Origin: Proteinivorax hydrogeniformans
GTDB taxonomy: Bacteria; Bacillota; Proteinivoracia; Proteinivoracales; Proteinivoracaceae
Direction: 5' to 3'
Assembly: GCF_040515995.1 (NCBI RefSeq)
Contig: NZ_CP159485.1
Span: 1,612,001 to 1,676,000, forward strand
Length of the DNA stretch: 64,000 nt
The position numbers and the translations under genes were made by a program. The notes below the pieces were generated by a model. It was not told where the DNA came from, did not search any database, and worked only from the letters and a program-made list of their open reading frames with translations. The stretch's first letter is position 1; every line of letters begins with the position of its first letter. Shown piece by piece: positions 38,393-51,753 of this stretch.

Positions 38393-38854
38393 ATGAAATT
38401 TTTTTCATTGTTTATTTTAGTATTTTTGTTAATCGGGTGTCAGCCGGGAGCTCCACAACAAGGAGCTGAAGAAAATCAAACCACGCCGATAGTTGATGAC
38501 TATGAAGATGGAACTTATAGAGGGGTGTTTATAGACCGAGATGAAGTCCAGGTAAATGTCCAGTTTTCTTTAAATGATAACACAATAGAAAGCATAAACT
38601 TTAGGCGTCTGTTTTACAGCAACCAAGACTATCTAGAAGCTGACGATGAGACGATTCAATCACTAGGAGAGCAGCATCAACAAGTACTAGAATCCATCCA
38701 AGGAACAGATATTAACGAAGCTTTAGAAGAACTCTATGAACCAGGAAATCTTGCAGAAGATATCGACGGCTTTACCTCAGCCACTCTAAGAGGAAACAAA
38801 ATACGCTCTGCCATAAAGGATGGTTTAAATAGAGGGGTTTATGTAAGAGATTAG
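38393..38854 (+). CDS. Lipoprotein with FMN-binding-like domain
   Basis: The 153-residue protein has a lipoprotein signal peptide ending in the lipobox LLIGC (Cys16). It then has an FMN_bind-like domain: DGTYRGVFIDRDEVQVNVQF near residue 41-60 and IDGFTSATLRGNKIRSAIKDG near 123-143, where the Ser-Ala-Thr corresponds to the S(G)AT motif to which FMN is attached or bound in RnfG/NqrC-like domains. It probably works outside the membrane in electron transfer. Lgt for its lipidation is encoded at 0.5 kb. Confidence 0.8.
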   Translation: MKFFSLFILVFLLIGCQPGAPQQGAEENQTTPIVDDYEDGTYRGVFIDRDEVQVNVQFSLNDNTIESINFRRLFYSNQDYLEADDETIQSLGEQHQQVLESIQGTDINEALEELYEPGNLAEDIDGFTSATLRGNKIRSAIKDGLNRGVYVRD

Positions 38855-38872
38855 TGTGATATATACGTTTAG

Positions 38873-38910
38873 TAAAAATGACTGAGCCAATTGTGGCTCA
38901 GTCATTTTTA
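38873..38910. terminator. Bidirectional terminator
   Basis: A perfect 17-base stem, TAAAAATGACTGAGCCA with its complement, around the loop ATTG. It separates two convergent genes. Confidence 0.88.
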
Positions 38911-38953
38911 CTAACTAAACTTTGTAAGTCTTGCAAAAGACACATTGGGCTTC

Positions 38954-39511
38954 CTATGTATTTATCATAACATCTTCTTTTAACTTCTCAATAGTTTTTT
39001 CATATTCTTCATGTTTTACAGATACCCTGACTTGTTTACTTCTAAGACCAGATTTGTTTTTTAAGCATATTATAAACTCAGGCGACTTTTTATTAACAAT
39101 TATACTTTCAATGTCTTCCCATTTATAAAAGTTACCCCTAGTGCTAATCCCGTTAGTATAAATTTCTTTGTCCTGAAATAAATACAAAAATAACCCTATT
39201 ATCATAATGGAAAACGTCCATTCAAAAGCATGTTCTGTCCCAGAAGTAATATTCGAAAACAAATTTCTTGCAGCAACTATCCCAAACCATATAGTAGTAA
39301 GTGTAATTATAAAAGGATCGGGAATTTTACTTTTAAACTCTAAAGCATGTCTTTTTTGTTTTAGCTGCTTAAAACAGATCTTTCCAAAAAAATATCCTCC
39401 GATTAGTAAGAAGAAAAGAGATGCAGTTAACTCACTTAAATAAAACAGATAAAAACTCGATGTAAGTAGTAGGCTGACAATTACACAAAAAACCAAAAAT
39501 CTTAAAAACAT
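38954..39511 (-). CDS. Hypothetical membrane protein with PH-like C-terminal part
   Basis: The 185-residue protein has four membrane segments (about residues 3-20, 26-44, 67-84, 96-112), then a soluble end with GISTRGNFYKWEDIESIIV, a pattern common to DUF5673 and bacterial PH-like (YcxB) domains. It is a single gene next to the second repeat cluster. Function unknown. Confidence 0.7.
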   Translation of the reverse strand: MFLRFLVFCVIVSLLLTSSFYLFYLSELTASLFFLLIGGYFFGKICFKQLKQKRHALEFKSKIPDPFIITLTTIWFGIVAARNLFSNITSGTEHAFEWTFSIMIIGLFLYLFQDKEIYTNGISTRGNFYKWEDIESIIVNKKSPEFIICLKNKSGLRSKQVRVSVKHEEYEKTIEKLKEDVMINT

Positions 39512-39574
39512 AAGTTTCCCTCCTTTTTATATTATATGAACAAATATTAAGATTAGAAGTTTTAAAGATGTATC

Positions 39575-39800
39575 GCTTTTGCCTACTGAAGGGTTAGTCG
39601 CTTGCTGGTAGCGCGTATTGTAGCAGTAGTGAGAAGTGGTAAGTTAGAAGTGGAAACCATTTGGGCTTCGATGTCCGTAGGCAATGAATTACCTGCTACG
39701 CTTAACCCTGAGTCATGAGTTTGAGTTTTTCGTGAGTCCTGCGCCCTTTGGGCTAGATTCTTCGGCAAGCTCAGAATGACGTCAAGAAAAAAAATACTGG
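39575..39800. repeat. Large intergenic repeat, truncated copy 6
   Basis: CTACTGAAGGGTTAGTCGCT and CTGGTAGCGCGTATTGTAGC match the left part of the repeat, then the unit jumps to the GTGAGTCCTGCGCCCTTTGG and ATTCTTCGGCAAGCTCAGAAT tail. The centre is missing. Confidence 0.7.
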
Positions 39801-39889
39801 CTGCTTATTCTAGGGAATGCCCCCTCTACCCTAGAAAACCAGTTAGATAGAAGATGGGTGGAAAGTGGAAAAAGCAGGGGCTTTCCTAT

Positions 39890-40520
39890 ATGGTTACCTA
39901 ATATGAATGGGGTTGGACCAAGCATGTAGCTTATTTCGTTATGTTTACCGTGGCCAATTAAGGATTTGTTATTAGCCCCTTGGGTCTAGGTTCTTTGGCG
40001 GGCTTTAAGATGAAGTTAACTAATTACCATTAACAAAAACAATTAGCCGCGAAAACGTATAAATTAGCTACATGCTGGGTCTGAAACTTACTCCAAATTT
40101 GCATATTCTGCTTGGTCATAGATACAGTAGTTCTTCGATAAGTTTTACCGCTTAAGCTTACTGAAGGGTTTGTCACTTACTGGCAGGGCGGATTAGTACT
40201 AGTAGTATGAGGTGAGAAGTAAGAGGTTGGACAAATGGCCAGAAATTAATGCTTGTGAGTAGTGAGAGGTGGGAAGTCAGAAGTTGGAATCAACTTTGGT
40301 AACCATATAAGGGGACCAAAATGGCTAGACTGCTTAGAAGTGCCTAGATTCTAGGCGCAGTTGATGGACCAGGGCGGGAACGTATCTTCTAATACGTGAC
40401 TGGCCTGGGCTAGCAATTGCAACAACGAAGATGGGTGCTGATAAACTGTCTGCAGCAGAGGAACTCCGTAGCCCAGAGGTAAATGACAAACCCTGAACTG
40501 ACCTGAGCATGGGTTTGAGA
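39890..40520. repeat. Large intergenic repeat, copy 7, with the second module in front
   Basis: The second module (ATGAATGGGGTTGGACCAAG to GTGGCCAATTAAGG, 39901-39965) is followed by the junction motif CCGCGAAAACGTATAAATTA and ATGCTGGGTCTGAAACTTAC (40048-40092) and a full unit with left arm near 40165 and right arm near 40480-40496. Here the junction is uninterrupted and shows the empty site of the IS3 element. Confidence 0.82.
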
Positions 40521-40719
40521 GCAATTGGCCACGAAAACGTATAAACTTGCTTACTCTGCCGGGTCAAAGGGCTTGCTATAAATTTGCTTATTCTGCTTGG
40601 TCTACAAATAAACGGTTTTTGTTAAACTGCAGGAGATTTTACTAATAATATACACTTTAAAAGAACAGTGTCTATATCTCATTCCTGCTGCATTTTAACA
40701 GGGTCTTTCTTAAATGGTT

Positions 40720-41398
40720 ATCTAATATGAATGGGGTTGGACCAAGCATGTAACTTATTTCGTTATGTTTACCGTGGCCAATTAAGGATTTGTTATTAGC
40801 CCCTTGTGGTCTAGGTTCTTTGGCGGGCTTTGAGATGAAGTTAACTAATTACCATTACCAAAAACAATTGGCCGCGAAAACGTATAAATTAGCTACATGC
40901 TGGGTCTGAAACTTACTCCAAATTTGCTTATTCTGCTTGGTCATAGATACAGTAGTTCGTTCGATAGGTTTTACCCTTAGGCTTACTGAAGGGTTTGTCA
41001 TTTACTGGCAGGGCGTATTGTAGCAGTAGTAAGAGGTGGGAAGTCAGAAGTTGGAATCAACTTTGGTAACCATATAAGGAGACCCAAATGGCTAGACTGC
41101 TTAGAAGTGCCTAGATTCTAGGCGCAGTTGATGGACCAGGGCGGGAGCGTATCTTCTAATACGTGACTGGCCTGGGCTAGCAATTGCAACAACGAAGATG
41201 GGTGCTGATAAGCTGTCTGCAGCAGAGGAACTCCGTAGCCCAGAGGTAAATGACAAACCCTGAACTGACCTGAGCCTGGTTTTGAGAGCAATTGGCCGCG
41301 AAAACGTATAAATTAGCTACATGCTGGGTCTGAAACTCACTCCAAATTTGCTTATTCTGCTTGGTCATAGATACAGTAGTTCGTTCGGTAGCTTTACA
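40720..41398. repeat. Large intergenic repeat, copies 8 and 9, with the second module in front
   Basis: The second module recurs at 40727-40792. Copy 8 runs from the junction motif at 40866 to the same motif at 41290, a 424-base period, with left arm at 40990 and right arm near 41247-41264. Copy 9 is the first 100 bases of another unit and stops at the perfect palindrome at 41399. Confidence 0.82.
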
Positions 41399-41449
41399 AA
41401 TAATGGCTGTCTTAAATTATCTTTTAGATAATTTAAGACAGCCATTATT
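41399..41449. terminator. Perfect 23-bp palindrome, probable terminator
   Basis: Bases 41399-41421 are exactly complementary to 41427-41449 around the loop TTTTA. The stem begins AATAATGGCTGTC. It lies five bases beyond the stop of the lspA-like pseudogene and cuts off the last repeat copy. The T-run on the minus strand is short. Confidence 0.65.
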
Positions 41450-41453
41450 GCCC

Positions 41454-41970
41454 TTAACTTCCTTTTAAAAATTGCACAAAATCCAAAGCAACTTTCTTTT
41501 CGCTTACGTTGTTAACAAACTTCCAGTTCTTAATAATAAAAAACCAAAACAACACCTGAAATGTAGTTAAGTAGACATCCTTTAGATCAAAAACAAAAAA
41601 TCCCCGTAAACCTATATAGTCTAAGCTACCTCCCCATAGCACTCTATCTAAAAGAGAGCATAAATATCTCCAGTAGCCTTGTTTCAATCTTATTTCCTTT
41701 TCTATTATAAGCATATCTAAAAAGTAAAATAGCTAGCACTAATATTGCTGATGTCAGGATTATATGAAAAGCCTTCGTATTTTCAATACCTAGCATAGAA
41801 TTATACCACGAGTAGTATGTGTTGTGGGTGGGCCTAAAATAGATAAAGTCCCCTATAAGATTGACATCAGATCCCCGGTAATTTCTAACTATAAGCTTAA
41901 CAACTTGATCTACCGCTACCAGCGCTGCAATAAGTAAATATCTAAAATTCGATTTCATAGTTTCCTCCAT
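41454..41970 (-). pseudogene. Signal-peptidase-II-like gene (lspA-like), frameshifted
   Basis: Two overlapping minus-strand frames together look like one LspA-type protein. The first (to 41644) has the N-terminal helix with LLIAALVAVDQVVKLIV and a HNTYYSWYNS segment where LspA has its NxGxxF motif. The second has SLLDRVLWGGSLDYIG, matching the two catalytic aspartates of LspA (NLIDR and VDF), and a final membrane helix. The frames switch in the shared region 41644-41714. A divergent lspA relative broken by an indel is the simplest reading; a sequencing error is possible. Confidence 0.6.
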
Positions 41971-42096
41971 CTTTTAAATATATCTTATACTATACTAAAA
42001 CAATTAGGTAGTTTCAATATCTTATCTTGGTATAGTTTAGCACATATCAAAAGTTCCTGCCCCTTTCTAGCACCTATCTTTTCCTCCTTACCGCAG

Positions 42097-42366
42097 TCAA
42101 AAGATACCGGTATGTTTTTTGTCGTTAGCAAAAATCATAGCTAGCAAATTAGACAGTGGTAAGCCCCACTTTAAATGGTTATCATTAATTATTTTAAACA
42201 CACGAGGAAAAGTATGGAGCTTTTCTTGGTAAAGAGACTTCTTAAATAGAAATGTGAAGTGATGTAGGACTAAACCGCAGTAGAGCAGCATAGTTTGTGC
42301 TTTGCTTACTGTCGTTTCATTCCACCACATAGTCCAAAATATTTGCATCCTCATGGGGCACTCCAA
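42097..42366 (-). CDS. Unrecognised short ORF, doubtful
   Basis: An 89-codon frame, the first 50 bases of which overlap the end of the upstream gene in another frame. No ribosome binding site is evident. The later part (LFKKSLYQEKLHTFPRVFKI to NLLAMIFANDKK) looks protein-like and may be a remnant of a longer gene. Confidence 0.25.
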   Translation of the reverse strand: MECPMRMQIFWTMWWNETTVSKAQTMLLYCGLVLHHFTFLFKKSLYQEKLHTFPRVFKIINDNHLKWGLPLSNLLAMIFANDKKHTGIF

Positions 42367-42805
42367 GATTAAACGAGTTTCTCAGCCATGAAAACCTAGG
42401 AGCTCCTTTGATTTTTGAGGCGACATATCCATGGTTAATTTTAGATAACGACCTATGGTTTCCATCTTCAACAGCTACCTTATAAATCTGCTGTGAAAAT
42501 AAAATCTCACCTTCTAGATAAAAGTTTATTTTAAAATACTCTTCTTGCAATAAATCCTCTAAACTGTCCGAAGATGATATGCCATTTAGGCCAAAATTAT
42601 CTATTATCTGGGCAACTAACTCCTCCTCTTCAATTATATAATCTTGACCATCTAATTCTAGAATCTCTATTTTTTCAACTTTATGCTGATTATCTATAAT
42701 GTCTACAACCATCATATTAGCCCTTTCCCCAGGAATGTTATAAACTGCTATTGCTGCAAATATTACTAATGCTAAAATTATGATTTTCTTTTTTCTACTC
42801 AACAT
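42317..42805 (-). CDS. Hypothetical protein with N-terminal membrane anchor
   Basis: The 162-residue protein starts at the ATG at 42805, with GGAGGG 3-4 bases upstream, and begins LSRKKKIIILALVIFAAIAVY, a single membrane anchor or uncleaved signal. The acidic remainder (KVEKIEILELDGQDYIIEEEEL and later) looks like a small extracytoplasmic domain. No family recognised. It is downstream of the recombinase operon on the same strand, with 95 bases in between. Confidence 0.65.
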   Translation of the reverse strand: MLSRKKKIIILALVIFAAIAVYNIPGERANMMVVDIIDNQHKVEKIEILELDGQDYIIEEEELVAQIIDNFGLNGISSSDSLEDLLQEEYFKINFYLEGEILFSQQIYKVAVEDGNHRSLSKINHGYVASKIKGAPRFSWLRNSFNLGVPHEDANILDYVVE

Positions 42806-42920
42806 ATACCCTCCTTTTATACACATTTAATATATACAGTAAATTTTTACACACAAAATGATACCTATAAGACCCTTAATTTCGTTTATATTAAAATCTA
42901 TGCAAAACCTTATTCCTATT

Positions 42921-43751
42921 TTACATAAACTGATCATATGTATTTTTTATGGCTTCATTATAAAGTTTAGCATAAGTTGATGTTGTCTCTATATCATCAT
43001 GTCCTAAAAGAATTCGAATATCTTCAAGGGGAGCGCCTTGTTGAGCCATGTGAACAACAAAGGTATACCTTAAAATGCGAGGATTTACTAAAAATCCAAG
43101 TTCTTTAGAGTAGTCTGCAAGGTAACGCTGGACAGTACGCTTACTAATCTTACTTTTTCTATCACTTAAAAAAACATATTCACTTTTTTCTTTAGTTTCT
43201 TTTATGTGTTTTTTTAGCCATAGAGCGCATTCTTCTCTAAAGTAAACTGTACGTTCTTTTTTTCCTTTACCTTCTGGTATTTTAATTTGTTTTTGTTTCC
43301 AGTTTATATCCTTGTGTTTTATATTTACAAGCTCGCTTGGTCTAACTCCAGTTGCGTAAAGGATTTCAATTATAGCTCTTTTTTTAGTATCTTTAACTAT
43401 CTCTCTTAATTTTAAAACTTCCAAATCTGTTAAATAGCTTGGGTAAGTATCTGGTATTTTAGGTTTATCTATTCCTTTTGTGGGATCTTTTTTTATTAGT
43501 TCATCTTCTAGTAAAAAGTTAAAAAATGATCTAAGCGCAATTAACTCTTTTGCACGTGTGGCAGGGCTTAACCCTTTTTTGTTTAGGTAAAGCATGTAAT
43601 TTTCTATATCTTTTTGAGTTATTTTGTCATAGTCTTTTTTATAAAAAGAGAAAAACTTGTTAACCACAAATTTGTACGTTTTTATAGTTTGTTTAGAAAA
43701 CCTAAGATTATGCTCTTTAAAGTATCTATTTACTTCTTCGGCATTTTTCAT
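42921..43751 (-). CDS. Tyrosine recombinase 1 of the quartet (type A, variant active site)
   Basis: The 276-residue recombinase has a SAM-like N-terminal domain (residues 5-95) and a catalytic domain with Arg137 (TGVRPSE), Lys164 in EGKGKKER, Arg228, His251 (LLGHDDIETTS) and nucleophile Tyr260. The usual His of HxLR is replaced by Arg225 (NPRILRYTF), so cleavage may be weakened. The start at 43751 has AGGAGG 7 bases upstream, overlapping the stop of recombinase 2. It is the fourth gene in transcription order and most like recombinase 3. Confidence 0.9.
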   Translation of the reverse strand: MKNAEEVNRYFKEHNLRFSKQTIKTYKFVVNKFFSFYKKDYDKITQKDIENYMLYLNKKGLSPATRAKELIALRSFFNFLLEDELIKKDPTKGIDKPKIPDTYPSYLTDLEVLKLREIVKDTKKRAIIEILYATGVRPSELVNIKHKDINWKQKQIKIPEGKGKKERTVYFREECALWLKKHIKETKEKSEYVFLSDRKSKISKRTVQRYLADYSKELGFLVNPRILRYTFVVHMAQQGAPLEDIRILLGHDDIETTSTYAKLYNEAIKNTYDQFM

Positions 43752-43762
43752 CTTTTTTCCTC

Positions 43763-44650
43763 CTACTCCATACACTTTCTGTAAAGTTTATCTAACCTTT
43801 TTATCCCGATTTTAGTGTAAATAAGAGTTGTACTAATACTTTTATGCCCTAAAAAATTTTTGATATAGTTTATAGGTGCTCCTTGCTCATATTGTGCCGT
43901 GGCTCGTGTATGCCGCAACATGTGAGGTGTTAGCTTTATACCTAGATCCTCAGAAATTTTTTTGAAAATATGACTTATTGCCCTTTTGGAGAGTCTTTTA
44001 TTGCGGTTACTTAAAAAAAGAGGAGTGGGCTTTTTCTCAGTAGGATGATTTTTTAAATACTCGTCAAGTAAAAATTGGCAGGTTACGTCAAAGTTTGCCT
44101 TTCGCATTATATTTCCTTTACCTGTTATGGATATAGTTCTATTTTCTAAATCTATATCTTCAACATCTATTTTTTGTAGTTCCCCAACTCTGCATGCTGT
44201 AGCATAGGTAAGCTCAACCAAAAGTCGATCCCTTAAAGGTAGTGTTTGTATATAAACTCTTAGTTTAGCAAAGTTACTTTCTGTTATGGATCTTGGCAGA
44301 GCTTTTTTAAGTTTAGGTTTCCATCTTTTTTTAATGAGCTTTTTTTCTTTTTCTATATAACCTTTTTTTTGGCAATACTTAAAAAAGGCTGAAAGCGAAG
44401 ATAACACCCCTGAAATGGTTGTATCTTTAAGCCCTTTTAAACCCGTATAAATATATTCCAATACATCTTCAGCGTCGAGCTCATTAATAGCTTTATCCAC
44501 TGCACCAAAAAAATCTTCTAGGACATATGAGTATTTTAAAGTAGTTTGTTTAGACCTATTTCCACTATCTAAATACAAAAGATATTCATTTATAATTTCT
44601 CTAGTTTTTTTTGATACAATTTCATTTTCTACAAGCCTAATATTTTCCAT
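43763..44650 (-). CDS. Tyrosine recombinase 2 of the quartet (type B)
   Basis: In 295 residues the full catalytic set is seen: Arg154 (TACRVGEL), Lys178 (TGKGN), His243 and Arg246 (PHMLRHT), His269 (FLGHKSIS) and Tyr278. It shares with recombinase 4 the segment LIKKRWKP near residue 105 and TLPLRDRLLVE near 136, which recombinases 1 and 3 lack. It follows recombinase 3 after 13 bases. Confidence 0.92.
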   Translation of the reverse strand: MENIRLVENEIVSKKTREIINEYLLYLDSGNRSKQTTLKYSYVLEDFFGAVDKAINELDAEDVLEYIYTGLKGLKDTTISGVLSSLSAFFKYCQKKGYIEKEKKLIKKRWKPKLKKALPRSITESNFAKLRVYIQTLPLRDRLLVELTYATACRVGELQKIDVEDIDLENRTISITGKGNIMRKANFDVTCQFLLDEYLKNHPTEKKPTPLFLSNRNKRLSKRAISHIFKKISEDLGIKLTPHMLRHTRATAQYEQGAPINYIKNFLGHKSISTTLIYTKIGIKRLDKLYRKCME

Positions 44651-44663
44651 GGGTTACACATCC

Positions 44664-45521
44664 TTATACATTAGTGTATTTTTCATGTTGCTTTTTCCTA
44701 TCTTCTGCATTAAGCTCTGCATAATTGCTAGTTGTATTAATGTTTTCATGGCCTAATATTGTTTGAATAATAGGAATAGGAACATCTTTTGACTCTAAAG
44801 TTGCACCAAGGGTGTACCTTAGCATATGGGGTGTGACTTTAAAATCTAGTTTTTCTGAGTATTCTCTGCAGAGCTTATGGATATAGTCTGAAGAAAGTTT
44901 TTCTCCTTTTTTATTGCAAAAAAGATATTCACTTTCAACTTTTCTATTGTTTAAATACTTTCGTAACCAAGCTTCGCATTTTCTAGTAAATGGCACTTCC
45001 CTTTCTTTTTTTCCTTTACCTTTTCTTATAGCAATAACCTTTCTATCCCAGTCGATATCTTTATCTTTGGCAACTTTAATTTCTAAAGCTTCGGTTATGC
45101 GCGCTCCTGTAGCTCTTAAAGTTTCTATAAGAGCACGTAGTCTTAAGTCACCTTTTATAGTTTCTAGTAATCTAACAAGTTTTACATCGTCTAAGTAACC
45201 ATGGGGATTTTTTTTAGCTTTAGGTCCATCGATGCCAATAGTAGGGTTAATGTAGTGATAATCATCTTCTACTAAGAACTCATAAAAGGATCTAACTGCA
45301 GTAAGTTTTAATCTTCTACTTTTCCCTGTAAGTCCTTCATCTTTTAAAAATATAAGCCAATCTTCAACATCTTCAGGTTGTACTTTATCAAATTCTTTTG
45401 GACAAAATGTGAAAAATTGATTTAGAGAAATTCTATAGCTTTTTTTAGTCGCTTCACTATAATAATTAAACTCTTTTAAAAAAAGGCTTATCATACTTTT
45501 AGTTTTTTTCAATTTTACCAC
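44664..45521 (-). CDS. Tyrosine recombinase 3 of the quartet (type A)
   Basis: The 285-residue protein has Arg141 (TGARITEA), Lys169 (KGKGKKERE), His232 and Arg235 (PHMLRYT), His258 (ILGHENINTT) and Tyr267. It shares with recombinase 1 the RSFYEFLVEDD segment near residue 77 and the NPTIGIDGPK linker. The GTG start at 45521 overlaps the recombinase 4 stop by 7 bases, so translation is probably coupled. Confidence 0.92.
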   Translation of the reverse strand: MVKLKKTKSMISLFLKEFNYYSEATKKSYRISLNQFFTFCPKEFDKVQPEDVEDWLIFLKDEGLTGKSRRLKLTAVRSFYEFLVEDDYHYINPTIGIDGPKAKKNPHGYLDDVKLVRLLETIKGDLRLRALIETLRATGARITEALEIKVAKDKDIDWDRKVIAIRKGKGKKEREVPFTRKCEAWLRKYLNNRKVESEYLFCNKKGEKLSSDYIHKLCREYSEKLDFKVTPHMLRYTLGATLESKDVPIPIIQTILGHENINTTSNYAELNAEDRKKQHEKYTNV

Positions 45522-46396
45522 CCCATTGCTCTGTTATATTCGTCGATCACATCATCTGTCAGTATCTTTGCATAAACTCTAGTGGTGTTTAAATCTTCAT
45601 GGCCGAGCTGTTTGGAAATAAAATTAATTGATTTTCCTTTTGCTAACATATGGGTAGCATATGTATGCCTTAGAGTGTGAGGACTTATTGATTTATCCAA
45701 ACTAGCACTTTTACCTAAATTACGTACGACTTTAAAGTAAATGTACTTAGAAGCTCTTTTTCCGTAGATATTTATAAATAAAGCTTCTTCATCGTCAGTT
45801 CTACTATTTAGGTATTCCTGCAATAAAAGTGCACATTTGGTTGAAAAGAACACTGTTCTTGTTTTATCACCTTTTCCTTCTATAATAGCTGAAGTATTTT
45901 TAATATCTATATCCTTTCTATTTAAATTTTGAGCTTCGAATTGTCTACAGCCTGACGATAACAAAAACTCAACTATTACCCGTTCTCTTAATGGCAACTT
46001 TTCTGCATGATAATTTATAGCTGCTAGCTCAGACCTAGTGAGGTATTTAATGATTCTGTCTTCTGTGGGAGGTAGCCAACGTTTTTTTATTAACCTCCTA
46101 TCAACAAACCCTTTTGCTAAACAGAATTTAAAAAAACTACTTAAAATCCAAAACACACTGTGGAAGGTTGCAGCTTTTTTGTCGTCATAATTTATAGACA
46201 GCCAAATACGTACATGCTCTGGTCTTAATTTTTCAAGTGGCACACTTAAGTCACTTAAAAATCTCCCCAAGCATGCTTTGTATTTTTTAATCGTCAACTC
46301 TCCCTTATCATCAAGTTTTAATTTCCTTATAAAAAGATTTAAAACCTCAAGGTTACGTTCAGTATAATTTGGGATGATTTCACAACTTTTTTCCAT
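45515..46396 (-). CDS. Tyrosine recombinase 4 of the quartet (type B), first in the operon
   Basis: The 293-residue protein has Arg151 (SGCRQFEA), Lys175 (EGKGDKTR), His240 and Arg243 (PHTLRHTYATH), His266 (QLGHEDLNTT) and Tyr275, so it looks fully active. It resembles recombinase 2 (LIKKRWLPP near residue 102, KLPLRERVIVE near 133). A GGAGGG site precedes the ATG. No excisionase, relaxase or phage gene is adjacent. Confidence 0.92.
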   Translation of the reverse strand: MEKSCEIIPNYTERNLEVLNLFIRKLKLDDKGELTIKKYKACLGRFLSDLSVPLEKLRPEHVRIWLSINYDDKKAATFHSVFWILSSFFKFCLAKGFVDRRLIKKRWLPPTEDRIIKYLTRSELAAINYHAEKLPLRERVIVEFLLSSGCRQFEAQNLNRKDIDIKNTSAIIEGKGDKTRTVFFSTKCALLLQEYLNSRTDDEEALFINIYGKRASKYIYFKVVRNLGKSASLDKSISPHTLRHTYATHMLAKGKSINFISKQLGHEDLNTTRVYAKILTDDVIDEYNRAMGW

Positions 46397-46561
46397 TTTA
46401 CCCTCCTTTTGATTTTAAGGATAGATTTTAATACTTGAATTTGTTTAGGGCACAGCAAACACACCCACTTGTTGCCTAGCTATGCAAAGTGGTTGCAAAG
46501 TCCTTTTATTCAATTGTTTAGTTGCTTGTTTAGCTTTGTAAAGTCCCCCCTTTAAACGACG

Positions 46562-46597
46562 AAAGGACCCCGTCTAAGCGACGGAAGGTCCTTTTTT
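46562..46597. terminator. Hairpin terminator upstream of the recombinase operon
   Basis: AAAGGACC plus CCGTC pairs with GACGG plus GGTCCTTT, loop TAAGC, followed by T6 on the plus strand. It insulates the recombinases from the DUF4238 gene. The rest of 46397-46772 is AT-rich with short imperfect repeats (TGCAAAG, GACGNAAGG) and no gene. Confidence 0.7.
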
Positions 46598-46772
46598 CCC
46601 ATAAAACAGACTTTGGGAAAAGAAAAATATCGTTATATTTATTTGTGAGTATTATAACCAGCGGTCAGAAGTTTATACATATTAACTTTAATGAACCTTT
46701 GATACTACAATTTCAGTTAAGTTTTGTTATGTAATGTAAATAACTGTTTTTATACCGTTAGTAAGCAGCCAC

Positions 46773-47795
46773 TTAATTTAAATCATACATAAGGTTTTTT
46801 CTACTAAGCCCCATCATATTGTCAGGTAAGGGAACATTTATGTATTTCTTTTTAATACTTAAAAAACTAAAATTTAGATTTTTATAAATACTACCAGAAG
46901 TAAAATGAACTAGCTCATTTCCATTTTCTTGCTTGTAAGTCCTCAAGTTATCTTCCAAACTTCGCTCTGTTCTACTTTTTACAATCTCTCTAATATAAGA
47001 CTCTTTTGTATCACGAGTGAAAAATAGTTTATTATATGCATTTTCAACTGCTAATTTATTTAATGCTGAAACTTCTTTTTTTGATTTAATATTATATATC
47101 GGTGTATTACCTAAAAAATCATACACATACGGATCAAAGAGACATAGTACATAATTGCAGCTTAACGGCATAAAAATTTGGATTCCAGCGTTTTCTAGTC
47201 CATAGCCAATTCTATAGTTTCTGGATACGTATAGTTTATTGTAAAATATAACTGGGTGATCACAGGTTATAAACTGATGATGATTTGTTTTGTTACATAA
47301 TAAAATCATCCCTAAGTCCCTAAGTTGCTTTGCCTCTTTTAACGCGATGTCGATGGGTACCTTACTTGGAACTTCTTTAAATTCCTTAAAGTCACTTTTT
47401 TTAATATTACCATTGTTGAGTCCCTCATCTGGAACCATCTTTTCCATGAACTCATATAAGTATTTATGTCTATCCGAAATTTTTTTTGTCCTGTAATGAG
47501 AAACTGCAATAAACTCTAAGAAGCTGTTATAGTCTTCTCTAGTTAAATAATAAAGTTCCTTTGATGAAAGAAGTTTGCGAATTATTCGTGCCCATATACT
47601 CTCAAGCTTACCCAATCTACCCTCAAGCTCCCCATTTTTTCCATAAAGATATCTACTATACGCCACACTCTTTATCGAAGCGTTTGTTACATGTTTTTTT
47701 GAATCTAACATAAACATGCCAATATTTTTTCTATTGTGCGAGTAATTTCTTAAATAAAACTGAGGTACATAGTGTTGCTTTTTAACCTTCCCCAT
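46773..47795 (-). CDS. DUF4238 domain-containing protein
   Basis: The 340-residue protein begins with KKQHYVPQFYLRNYS (residues 4-18), the hallmark of the DUF4238 family, which is found mostly in accessory regions; I do not know an experimentally assigned function. Later segments FITCDHPVIFYN and FMPLSCNYVLCLFDP are also conserved in the family. The start at 47795 has GGAGAAGGG upstream; the ATG at 47840 has none. It lies 60 bases downstream of the 322-residue gene on the same strand. Confidence 0.8.
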   Translation of the reverse strand: MGKVKKQHYVPQFYLRNYSHNRKNIGMFMLDSKKHVTNASIKSVAYSRYLYGKNGELEGRLGKLESIWARIIRKLLSSKELYYLTREDYNSFLEFIAVSHYRTKKISDRHKYLYEFMEKMVPDEGLNNGNIKKSDFKEFKEVPSKVPIDIALKEAKQLRDLGMILLCNKTNHHQFITCDHPVIFYNKLYVSRNYRIGYGLENAGIQIFMPLSCNYVLCLFDPYVYDFLGNTPIYNIKSKKEVSALNKLAVENAYNKLFFTRDTKESYIREIVKSRTERSLEDNLRTYKQENGNELVHFTSGSIYKNLNFSFLSIKKKYINVPLPDNMMGLSRKNLMYDLN

Positions 47796-47855
47796 TGCAG
47801 TCCCTTCTCCCCCATAATTTCTGTTCGTTAATCTTGCCATAAAGCAACAGAATAA

Positions 47856-48824
47856 TCATCCAATATTCTCTATATTTTTTCTTATTTGTTTCTTTTGTAA
47901 TATTGCGTTTTTAATGCATATAAACTTCATATCTGATAAGTAATCCACGGTTCCATCATAGATCTTCAGTAGATCTCTACCAACGGGATTTAAAACTCCT
48001 CTATGTAGATGATATCGACCACTTTCTGCGTAATCTCCCGCTATGTTAGAGACCAAGCCATAAATCCACATTCTTGTATCAGTGCCATTGTTTATCATAT
48101 CAATATACTCTGAAAGTCTCTCCCTAATTAAATCGTCAACTTGATTGTTAACCAGTTCAAAAGCATAACTGTATTCGCTAAACCTTTCTTTTATTTCATC
48201 AAGTATCTTTATGGCTTTATGAATATGATGGGGGTAGTTAATCAATTTATATATGATGGTTTTAACTTCTCTTTGCTCTTCATTTTCCTCTAGATAGGCT
48301 CGTTGCAAATAACTTAATGACCCTAATTGTTCTACTTTACTCTTTTCTATATGCCGCTTAAACTCATTTTTATAGCTGTCAATATATTTTTGGTCGTCAA
48401 ATAAAACTGCACATAGTATAGCACCTTTATACGACTGTATAATGAAAGGGTCACATATTAAGCTAGATCTAAAACTTACCTCTGCTACTGCCAACTTTTC
48501 TCTATTATCTCTTTTTAGTAAGTCAGAGAGTTTGATACTGTTTAAAATATCTTCACCTAACCTAAACAAAGTTAAACCAAACATCGAAAGTATCATTTTC
48601 ACATCTTTTTCACTTTCACTTATAGCAACAAAATTGTTCTCTACTAGCTCATAAAAGTCTGATAATAAAAGAAAATCCTTTACCTTTGCAACATCATGAT
48701 TACAATTACAAAAAATTTCATTGAAAACATACAAATTAACTTCTTTCCATTTCTCATGCTTCATAAGCAAAGGCATAAGATCATCTATGGTCTCAATTTT
48801 TGTTTCTTCCCAAGCTACCTCCAT
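47856..48824 (-). CDS. Hypothetical helical protein
   Basis: I do not recognise this 322-residue protein. It appears mainly alpha-helical, perhaps TPR-like (RSSLICDPFIIQSYKGAILC, SLSYLQRAYLEENEEQREVK). It contains no obvious membrane segment or enzyme motif. GAGGAGGGA lies before the ATG. It probably forms a unit with the DUF4238 gene. Confidence 0.7.
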   Translation of the reverse strand: MEVAWEETKIETIDDLMPLLMKHEKWKEVNLYVFNEIFCNCNHDVAKVKDFLLLSDFYELVENNFVAISESEKDVKMILSMFGLTLFRLGEDILNSIKLSDLLKRDNREKLAVAEVSFRSSLICDPFIIQSYKGAILCAVLFDDQKYIDSYKNEFKRHIEKSKVEQLGSLSYLQRAYLEENEEQREVKTIIYKLINYPHHIHKAIKILDEIKERFSEYSYAFELVNNQVDDLIRERLSEYIDMINNGTDTRMWIYGLVSNIAGDYAESGRYHLHRGVLNPVGRDLLKIYDGTVDYLSDMKFICIKNAILQKKQIRKNIENIG

Positions 48825-48990
48825 ACTCTATCCCTCCTCTACCTGACTTCCCATACATCTCTTGTTTTACAAACTATATTCATATCTTTTAAAAATATCA
48901 AAAATCTGCATACATTCATAAGTTATTTAAAGTTATTAAGCGCTTCAGGCAAGCATATAAATATATCAAAACCTTAAGGAGGTTCCTATT

Positions 48991-49302
48991 TTGTTGAATG
49001 TATATTATCAAGGTGAACAAATGCAGTGTGAAACGCTATTATCCACGGATAATGATTTAAGAAAAGTGTTAAACATCCTTCAAAATGTGAATGATAAAAA
49101 ACAACCTATTAACCTACATGAAATTGGAGCAACTATATTTGATATAGCATCAAGCTATTCATGTATACATGGTATGGACAGTGTACAAAAGCAAGCTTTA
49201 GCTAATTTGGGTTATATCTTATTCACCCGTAATGAGAATACAGTTAGTAGAGAGCACTTATATGAGAAGATATTTTTGACTTTCTTTGAGATTGTTGAAT
49301 AG
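48991..49302 (+). CDS. Hypothetical protein
   Basis: A 103-codon frame with AAGGAGGTT 6 bases before a TTG start at 48991 (the next codon is also TTG). The protein is soluble, with a helical C-terminal half (SVQKQALANLGYILFTRNEN). No family recognised. It is the only plus-strand gene in the 42-51 kb accessory stretch. Confidence 0.6.
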   Translation: MLNVYYQGEQMQCETLLSTDNDLRKVLNILQNVNDKKQPINLHEIGATIFDIASSYSCIHGMDSVQKQALANLGYILFTRNENTVSREHLYEKIFLTFFEIVE

Positions 49303-49382
49303 TCTTACCAAACGTAAGGCCAATCGCTAACTGTAGACCTTCTCAAGGTCTTAATGTGAATAACCCTTTTATTACTCTTTTT

Positions 49383-49979
49383 TTAATTACAATCACATTT
49401 ACTTTCATACTTAAATACTTTCTCATAATACCTATACTTTCTCCTAATTCCTGCATTCTTTATCTTTCTAACCGAAGGTATTGCCACTTTAAAAGAAACG
49501 AGAATTTCACTCTTTTTAGCTTCAGGCACAAATGCTATATCAAGATGTGTGAAAGTATTTGCCTTAAAGGTTCCGTAACTGGAATTTGGGTAATTTAATT
49601 TTGCTATAGCGCCATCATGTTCAAAGTAAAGATCCTCTACTTTTGAATCATATAGTTTAAATGAGTTTTTATGTAAATAAGGTAAACGTTCATAATTAGA
49701 AGAATTACTTTTTTCTATAACTCTTAAATCAAAATATCCTATATCGTTTGGCGAAGGGTTAACTATTTTAATAATACAAGCTTTGCCTTTAAATAAAACT
49801 TTCGGTCTTTTACATATAAACTCATTATGGTTTTCATATGCGTTTCCTACATTTATCAATTTGTCTTCTATGCAAACTTCCAACCTTTTTTTTACTTGTT
49901 TATAATTAGCAAATGACAATGCTAGGGCTAAAAAAGAAATTATTACAGGTATTAAGAACTTTAATACTTCCCAGTTCAT
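49383..49979 (-). CDS. Hypothetical membrane-anchored protein
   Basis: The 198-residue protein has one N-terminal membrane helix (VLKFLIPVIISFLALALSFA, residues 5-24) and a beta-rich domain with VLFKGKACIIKIVNPSPND, which could be an immunoglobulin-like fold. Function unknown. Confidence 0.65.
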   Translation of the reverse strand: MNWEVLKFLIPVIISFLALALSFANYKQVKKRLEVCIEDKLINVGNAYENHNEFICKRPKVLFKGKACIIKIVNPSPNDIGYFDLRVIEKSNSSNYERLPYLHKNSFKLYDSKVEDLYFEHDGAIAKLNYPNSSYGTFKANTFTHLDIAFVPEAKKSEILVSFKVAIPSVRKIKNAGIRRKYRYYEKVFKYESKCDCN

Positions 49980-50129
49980 TAACGAATCACCTACTTGCCT
50001 ATGATTTAATCATACTTAGTTTCAGTAGTTAGCCGGAGTGCTGCTCCGGCTAACTCTAATCTTCTTCGAGTCATATACCAATAACATTATTCGCCTGTGG
50101 CTTACTCCATCTTCAAAACTCTTATGATG

Positions 50130-50743
50130 CTATCCTTCTAATATAGAATTCAATTTATTTTTAATAGTAGCTTCTTCAAATGTATCAAGTTTATCTAATG
50201 CTTCATGTATTATAACTTTTATATCCTCAAAGTTATCATGCAGCCTTGCTTTTTTAACTAGTGGTAATAATTCTTTATCTAAATCAATTTCTTTATATTG
50301 TCCTGACAACTCTTTCTGATCTTTAGCTTTGTACAAAACAGCTAGCATAGCATGGAACAACGCATCTCTATACTTCTTTTCTTTATTTACTGCTTTCGCC
50401 TCAAGTCGCTAATTTTGCTGATATCCTGAGGCCTTTTCAGAGCCACATCATTTAATAGTCTCCATGCGTCATCATTTTTTTTTATTTTAAGTAACAGTGT
50501 ATGCAATTTTTTATAATGATTAAAACTAGCGTTAAGATTGGGTTCTGCTAGAGCTTGCTGTCGCAACTTTATTGCATTTTCATATTCTTCTGCTTTCTCT
50601 AAGCGCTCTGATTCTACCAGCAACTCAAGTGCTTCGCCACCAGCTTCTATTCCCGAGTGTTTTTTTGCTAATATGTCCGTATCTTTAGCTGACCTGTCTG
50701 ACTTGTTGCTCTTAAACAGTTTACTTAATATACTCAATAACAT
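50130..50743 (-). pseudogene. TPR-like hypothetical gene, frameshifted
   Basis: Two minus-strand frames form one protein of about 200 residues. The first (to 50387) reads ESERLEKAEEYENAIKLRQQ, a TPR-like helix pair, and ends ISDLRRKQ. In the other frame the same DNA reads EAKAVNKEKKYRDALFHAML and continues for 76 or more codons. Adding one G near 50398 would join them (SDLEAKAVNKEKKYRDAL). There is no separate ribosome binding site for the second part. Confidence 0.6.
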
Positions 50744-50833
50744 CGCCTCCTCAAAAGAATTCTATTTAATGATTCATTCTAGATAACTGTAAGATAACCT
50801 TTAAGATATTTCAAAAAATTGTATAAATTCGAT

Positions 50834-50881
50834 AACACAAAAAGGACACTTCCCTATATTGGGATATGTCCTTTTTGTGTT
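50834..50881. terminator. Bidirectional terminator
   Basis: AACACAAAAAGGACA pairs with TGTCCTTTTTGTGTT, 15 perfect pairs. It follows the Dps-like gene on the minus strand. Confidence 0.75.
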
Positions 50882-50919
50882 CTATTTTTTCCTATCTTCT
50901 ATCATCTATCTCCTACCAC

Positions 50920-51600
50920 CTAATGCATCTGATCATATCCCGGAGCGTTATCCGCCTTACGATGGCTCATGCCATCTTGGGCTTCTACGTGGTGCTGTAG
51001 TCCTCTGTTTAAACTATCGTCTTCTAGGCAGCTGTAAAGGTGGTATGCTAGGTCTTCTCTGGTTAGTAGCACTTCTTCTAGGACTTCTACTGTTCCAAAG
51101 TCTTTTAGCTGATGTGCTCTGTCTATTTGTTGCCTAAGCTTGTTTTGCATGTTAATTTCATGTTCTAAGTCGTTTCTTAACATATCTCGCATGGAAAACC
51201 TTCCTTCAGCTTCGTGCTTAATATAGGAAAGCTGGTGTTGTGCTTCTGGGTGCCCTGTTGGTAATCCACCTAGTCTTGCTATACGCTCTCCTATTTTATC
51301 TATATGCTCTACTGTTTTTTCAACATGCTCTTCTAGTAGGTGGTGTAATGACAGAAATGATTCTGGTCCTTCTGTTAGCCAATGATGTTTGTTGTATTGG
51401 TGAAGGGCGACGTGTAGTGCACAGTTGTGCTCATCTAGCATTTGCGCCATTTCTAGTCTTGTGTCGTGATCTAATGATATACCTGAGCCTTTTACAGTTT
51501 GGGGCTCCTGTCTTTTTACCATTTTATGGTCAGGGGTGGTTCCAGATAAATTTGGTGCGTTTGGGTTGGTATCAAGTTGATTGTTGGTTTGTTTGTGCAT
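50920..51600 (-). CDS. Dps-like ferritin-family protein
   Basis: The 226-residue protein has a central ferritin-like four-helix bundle. The HQYNKHHWLTEGPESFLSLH block near residue 67-86 and DKIGERIARLGG near 100 match the Dps pattern (HW..G..F..LH, D.IAER), which forms the ferroxidase site between subunits. The hydrophilic N-terminal 40 residues and a His-rich C-terminal tail are longer than in standard Dps. It probably stores iron and protects against peroxide. AAAAGGAGG precedes the ATG. Confidence 0.85.
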   Translation of the reverse strand: MHKQTNNQLDTNPNAPNLSGTTPDHKMVKRQEPQTVKGSGISLDHDTRLEMAQMLDEHNCALHVALHQYNKHHWLTEGPESFLSLHHLLEEHVEKTVEHIDKIGERIARLGGLPTGHPEAQHQLSYIKHEAEGRFSMRDMLRNDLEHEINMQNKLRQQIDRAHQLKDFGTVEVLEEVLLTREDLAYHLYSCLEDDSLNRGLQHHVEAQDGMSHRKADNAPGYDQMH

Positions 51601-51753
51601 CCTTGTTTCCTCCTTTTGATTAATGCTACTAAAGGTTTCTTTTTTATTTTTTGTTTTGTCAATTTTAATATGTTGGTATTTAACTGTAGTTATGGTAAAT
51701 CAATAGCTTAATGGTAATAATATCATTATTAAAGGAAAAAGGAGTTTTTTTAT

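Follow-up and report, generated by a model that had tools for sequence, protein, structure and literature searches.

Several kinds of mobile element carry two or three tyrosine recombinases, and why they do so is an open question; one study remarks on the difficulty of picturing how four strand cuts would be divided among three proteins (PMC3414803). The GInt islands (ginABCD) have three recombinase-type genes plus ginD at the 5' end of the island, with ginC described as lacking catalytic residues; their att repeats are 10-11 nt long, and every gene was required for recombination in the published tests (PMC5385486). Recombinase-in-trio (RIT) elements consist of the RitA, RitB and RitC families and have terminal inverted repeats (PMC3414803, PMC8138268). 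Relatives of Tn554 (TnpA, TnpB, TnpC) have a long recombinase of 611-828 aa, plus TnpC (PMC3414803). The strand-biased circularizing integrative elements (SEs) of Gammaproteobacteria have the order intA-tfp-intB-srap, with two catalytic genes, and imperfect terminal repeats of 13-19 bp (PMC10214605). Here we analyze an operon of four tyrosine recombinase genes, called the quartet, in a window of 64,000 nucleotides (bases 1612001-1676000 of contig NZ_CP159485.1) from the single-contig 2.83-Mb genome of Proteinivorax hydrogeniformans (G000).

We propose, with a probability of about 0.75, that the quartet encodes the integrase of a site-specific integrative genomic island and that its two recombinase families would act as a hetero-oligomer; the proposal is built on comparative sequence analysis. 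In the open-access literature we found no four-recombinase clusters and no integration into the gene for spore photoproduct lyase (SPL), the target of four of the clusters described below. As far as we found in that literature, elements which insert with four different recombinases are undescribed.

Two alternating recombinase families

The quartet consists of four intact open reading frames, which form one tight operon on the minus strand from 46396 to 42921.

45515..46396, minus strand: B1 tyrosine recombinase, first gene of the operon; 293 aa; RKHRHY complete
44664..45521, minus strand: A1 tyrosine recombinase; 285 aa; 7-nt overlap with B1; RKHRHY complete; in one clade with A1 of other clusters (96/88)
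43763..44650, minus strand: B2 tyrosine recombinase; 295 aa; RKHRHY complete
42921..43775, minus strand: A2 tyrosine recombinase; GTG start; 284 aa; overlaps B2 by 13 nt; Arg at the position of the first catalytic His, Tyr kept; in one clade with A2 of G017a (87/89)

Each protein scores 122-127 bits on Pfam PF00589 (cut-off 27.1), which bears out the first-pass annotation of four complete tyrosine recombinase genes on one strand. None of the four passes an NCBIfam cut-off, and PADLOC gave no matches to them. The closest solved structures are XerA (5hxy, 4a8e) and XerD (1a0p), and length and alignment indicate a single CB domain in every protein. The intergenic spacing is -7, +13 and -13 nt when A2 is read from GTG. 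This start is preferred because the 13-nt overlap between B2 and A2, with the start MYGV, recurs in two related clusters (G017a and G572). The spacing given previously was -7, +13 and +11; the first two values stand, while the third resulted from the use of a later ATG.

Of the active-site residues, R, K, R, H and Y are present in all four window proteins; B1, A1 and B2 have six of the six catalytic residues and A2 has five. The alignment agrees with the first-pass annotation that A2 (its gene 1) has an Arg in place of the first active-site His. Loss of this His is restricted to A2, where it occurs in four of the eight proteins (Arg twice, Leu, Asn), compared with none of the 29 other aligned proteins. 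The suggestion that A2 may be structural is nevertheless weak: the nucleophilic Tyr is retained along with four other catalytic residues, and the His itself is present in half of the A2 orthologues.

The assignment to two families, B (genes 4 and 2 of the first-pass annotation) and A (its genes 3 and 1), is evident from hidden Markov models and from phylogeny. On the A model the A proteins reach 411-416 bits, as opposed to 157-190 bits on the B model, and the B proteins behave in the reverse manner. A maximum likelihood tree of 59 proteins took in all of the B (13) and A (14) proteins known at that point; the B proteins form one clade (support 100/99) and the A proteins another (100/98). RitA, RitB and RitC of pHG1, XerC/D-like proteins and phage integrases are all located outside these two clades. 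Clades and scores together uphold the order B-A-B-A, and the four window proteins do form two families in a tree that includes RIT proteins; a close kinship with RIT elements is not supported. Relatives of the B protein in viral contigs and plasmids reached ~30-35% identity at most and were generic integrases.

We ran the B-family profile on 398 genomes of the phylum, on a second draw of 397 and on 113 genomes from the class of G459. Beyond the window, nine clusters were found in eight other genomes of the same phylum, which makes ten clusters in nine genomes.

G017a, G017b: two BABA clusters in one genome
G459: BABA, B2 broken
G517: BAABA
G555: BAABA
G543: decayed (B1 and A2), with an A-B fusion of 397 aa
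G449: divergent BABA
G572: A-B-A, B1 absent; IS21 element directly upstream
G039: bare B-A pair

On the B profile, B proteins from the clusters scored 230-450 bits, and other recombinases of the first draw at most about 225; the weakest members (G449) were identified through their BABA context. The quartet occurs as a unit in other genomes, and neither of the refuting conditions named in the first-pass annotation came true. Apart from the fusion, the recombinases measure 264-298 aa, the gaps or overlaps between their genes are short, and most genes retain all catalytic residues. Because the order and the gene sizes recur in other families of the phylum, B-A-B-A lies far outside what chance would give. 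Gene number varies, as there is a bare pair (G039) as well as a five-gene form, B-A-A-B-A, with a tandem duplication of A1 (G517, locus L176; G555, locus L243). In G001, the one congeneric genome that was searched, the B family is missing.

Single clusters show further peculiarities. The fusion in G543 (L244 8523-9716) joins an A-type N-terminal domain to a full B recombinase and recalls the two CB domains of RitA. In G572 (L245 12460-14717) IstA/IstB of the IS21 type lie directly upstream of A1, at the place expected for B1. In G017 (L026 10293-13718 and 5043-8508) two proteins, the first cluster's A1 and the second cluster's A2, stop just after the catalytic Tyr, without the C-terminal helix.

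BABA is best read as a duplicated BA, since a bare B-A unit exists in G039. In a larger tree of A proteins, A1 of the window, G459, G543, G017, G517 and G555 form a single clade (96/88), and A2 of the window pairs with A2 of G017a (87/89). Because the A1 proteins group across loci, and the window A2 groups with that of G017a, the split between A1 and A2 predates the divergence of these loci. Identity inside the window is ~30-39% for B1-B2 or A1-A2. Hence the earlier idea of a B-A pair duplicated into a quartet survives with regard to the two alternating families and the bare pair, but not with regard to a local event; the duplication is old and not local to the window. The B tree was without resolution. 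Forcing A1, A2, B1 or B2 each into one clade, which bears on a single versus a repeated BA duplication, was not rejected (p-AU 0.13-0.19).

These proteins resemble those of RIT elements in that both are tyrosine recombinases of distinct families, encoded by small genes that overlap within an operon. RIT elements, however, have three families, whereas here four genes belong to two families that exclude the pHG1 Rit proteins; RitA has two CB domains, whereas each of the four window proteins has one, and an A-B fusion occurs only in G543. The Tn554 type also combines more than one tyrosine recombinase with a site-specific target, but all ten clusters lack a 600-800-aa recombinase, and their quartet-type proteins are shorter than 300 aa with the exception of the 397-aa fusion; this distinction is made by protein length and not by the tree. 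XerC, XerD and archaeal XerA have the same size and fold. However, the best quartet score is 214.9 bits against the XerA cut-off of 220, the scores for XerC and XerD are far below, and G000 has separate XerC/D-like genes. That genome has eight tyrosine recombinase genes in total, including two XerC/D-like ones elsewhere. A second adjacent pair, unrelated to the quartet, is also present in G000 (genes 2141075-2142755; L160 6016-8197, corresponding to G000 2141015-2143196).

Element ends and target sites

The downstream end is readable in six clusters (G517, G555, G459, G543, G017a and G017b; two junctions are listed for G555). It consists of a hairpin, 31-36 nt and a core (GGNAARTRCG or related), at which the target DNA takes up again. 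The hairpin is a palindrome of the type TCCTTG-N5-CAAGGG, which is divergent in G017a and usually followed by a T-run. Four clusters are inserted in the SPL gene, at two positions. The junctions of G517 and G555 are at the identical base, at the GKCEYCY codons (GGAAAATGCGAATACTGC / GGCAAGTGCGAATACTGC / GGAAAGTACGAATACTGC), and those of G459 and G543 at the second position, GYGKYVYP (GGAAAGTACGTTTATCC). Both positions have the core GGNAARTRYG in common.

The layout of G517 comprises an intact SPL gene (21494-20484), cargo, the five recombinases, the hairpin (2758-2742) and the displaced 3' part of SPL (2708-1961). G555 has the same order with Gabija genes in between, and ~18-20 kb separate the intact from the displaced SPL in these two genomes. 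In G459 the intact SPL is on a different contig, 450 bp from the contig end. In G017 the target is the 5' region of surface genes; it is present in three copies, and the shared sequence begins abruptly at GA(T/G)A(A/G)GTGCTATTAAC. A hairpin precedes two of the copies and an ordinary gene end precedes the other one, the pattern expected of two elements integrated in tandem.

The palindrome is rare: genome-wide, the exact palindrome occurs in 0-2 copies in 12 of 13 genomes and in ten copies in G517. The single copy in G039 is located just downstream of its B-A pair. Shuffled DNA (2.0 Mb) yielded one composite of palindrome, spacing and core; the real DNA examined (0.40 Mb), for which the expectation is ~0.2, yielded five at junction-type sites.

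Two observations concern the surroundings of these sites. G517 (L219, G517:C46, 9409-11993) has extra hairpin-core copies, of which one is followed by SPL and one (9409) by non-SPL DNA after a GGCAAATGCG core; they are possibly remnants of other integrations. At the target repeat of G017 a surface gene is preceded by a c-di-GMP-I riboswitch (L026 2246-2330), and there are matches to group II introns (L026 534-840) nearby (both Rfam).

An island with variable cargo at one specific target with short direct repeats, as in GInts, is seen in the relatives G517, G555, G459, G543 and G017. GInts (PMC5385486) likewise carry several neighbouring tyrosine recombinases at one end, and they are the closest system in function. 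The gene set is different: here there are four or five catalytic-looking genes from two alternating families, and in G555 the terminal hairpin directly follows A2, which leaves no GinD-like gene there. SEs are alike in having a recombinase operon (two tyrosine recombinases and a recombinase-fold protein), a specific target and cargo, but the window has four catalytic-looking genes where SEs have two. In contrast to RIT elements, the clusters have cargo, and no inverted repeats above those in shuffled flanks were found around seven clusters.

The window copy and its neighbours

Comparison with G001 sets an outer limit to the window copy, and its neighbours include candidate cargo.

38855..51677, no strand: stretch of 12.8 kb that includes the quartet and differs completely from the 13 kb at the syntenic place in G001; any element here would end within it
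46773..47840, minus strand: DUF4238 protein (PF14022, E 3.6e-46) immediately upstream of the quartet; candidate defence cargo
47856..48824, minus strand: 322-aa protein beside DUF4238, no assigned function; possible cargo
49383..49979, minus strand: 198-aa protein, no assigned function; possible cargo

DUF4238 is counted as an antiphage system (PMC10855318, PMC12629846); of the proteins studied here, it is the one for which the phage collection was searched. Several candidates for the ends of the window copy were rejected. A 13-nt pair, TATTAAAATCTAT / ATAGATTTTAATA, near both ends of the quartet is within the range of shuffled sequences, and no direct or inverted repeats flanking the window quartet exceed those in shuffled flanks. 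The syntenic stretch of G001 consists of 13 kb of unrelated genes and is not an exact empty site, and the boundaries of homology to G001 (38842-38851 and 51678) are uninformative, since one is simply a gene end and the other the promoter region of a different gene. The non-coding repeats at 39520-41470 do not qualify as recombination sites because dozens occur in G001, which has no B family. These repeats are modular and partly tandem, with more than 100 partial copies in G000 and a variable order of modules. At 41454-41970 there is a frameshifted pseudogene of lspA (signal peptidase II), followed by a perfect 24-bp hairpin at 41399-41449.

Within a few kilobases, the neighbours of the clusters are mostly phage-defence genes.

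G017b: Thoeris ThsA/ThsB
G459: DruE-like and DpdE-like helicases, beside BrxL and methylase fragments
G517: AbiU and ATPase
G555: Gabija GajA/GajB
G449: CBASS cyclase with SAVED effector
G039: weak Avs1b match
G572: helicase with partial Mko match

This association of the clusters with defence genes is suggestive.

Proposed mechanism and alternatives

Taken at its most likely, the mechanism would be as follows. The B and A families, long ago duplicated into B1-A1-B2-A2 and translationally coupled, probably act jointly as a hetero-oligomer, which would recombine a site on the element with a short chromosomal core. In the resolved relatives the DNA downstream of the core, for instance the 3' part of SPL, would be supplied anew by the element, so that the target gene stays whole, and the original 3' part would be displaced beyond the terminal hairpin. 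Cargo, often phage-defence genes, would lie on either side of the operon. We infer that the quartet recombinases make the hairpin-core junctions and, from the shared operon, that the window copy is part of an element like those of its relatives.

XerC and XerD form a two-protein heterotetramer in which the proteins alternate. By analogy, the quartet proteins would work as a mixed tetramer, and doubling of the BA pair may have provided four distinct subunits for four distinct half-sites. A stricter version, an obligate tetramer of four non-equivalent recombinases with one per half-site of the two recombining DNAs, is conceivable but doubtful; in it the order B1-A1-B2-A2 would encode directionality without a separate excisionase, and the fourth subunit would tolerate the loss of His because its strand is cut or joined differently.

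Several points weigh against the integrative island. The window search revealed no hairpin-core junction or target duplication for the window cluster. The search for hairpin plus core located no end in G449 and G572 and, in G039, nothing beyond the palindrome. An exact empty site with otherwise identical flanks was absent from the genomes compared. The flanks of G459, G517 and G039 served to define the motif, so that only G017, G555 and G543, which came later, are independent tests. The palindrome may be a plain terminator, given the T-run in most cases. The intact and displaced parts of SPL are 83-87% identical, from which it follows that the SPL integrations are old or came from related strains. 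Decay (B2 in G459, B1 and A2 in G543, no B1 in G572) makes activity uncertain. Finally, the control for the defence genes was small: ten proteins from unrelated regions, none with a PADLOC match at 1e-40.

The alternative that survives best, though it is improbable, is DNA inversion or phase variation, in which the quartet would recombine repeats in place and so switch surface or defence genes nearby, with no island being moved. XerA-like recombinases of the size of the quartet proteins serve in such systems, and the G017 clusters lie amid surface-protein genes with repeated 5' regions and signal peptides, one of them with a c-di-GMP riboswitch. However, the repeats around the clusters are direct, which would lead to excision and not to inversion, and inverted repeats beyond chance are missing at the seven clusters. 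The neighbours differ entirely among loci (Thoeris, Gabija, CBASS, AbiU), and the SPL junctions represent integration into a gene.

It is very unlikely that the recombinase genes are nearly the whole of a RIT- or Tn554-like transposon that moves without cargo. Adjacent small tyrosine recombinases with overlapping frames are indeed found in RIT elements (PMC3414803), but the tree sets the A and B families apart from RitA, RitB and RitC, flanking inverted repeats are not above chance, and the distance between intact and displaced SPL in G517 and G555 implies that cargo is included. Equally unlikely is that the genes are remnants of phage or island integrases that piled up at an integration hotspot without cooperating: tandem integrations at one target (G017, G517, G555) and some broken genes would fit, but random accumulation would not preserve a single order, and the strict B-A alternation, the sizes and the spacing of a few bases recur across families of the phylum, with all catalytic residues kept in most genes.

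If the quartet is the integrase operon of an island, the forms BA, BABA and BAABA together with a readable core would provide a graded natural series for asking which subunit binds which half-site. The hairpin, the ~34 nt, the core and the displaced gene fragment would serve as a signature for finding such islands, and the spread of Thoeris, Gabija, CBASS and other defence systems among Bacillota may in part be due to quartet islands as carriers.

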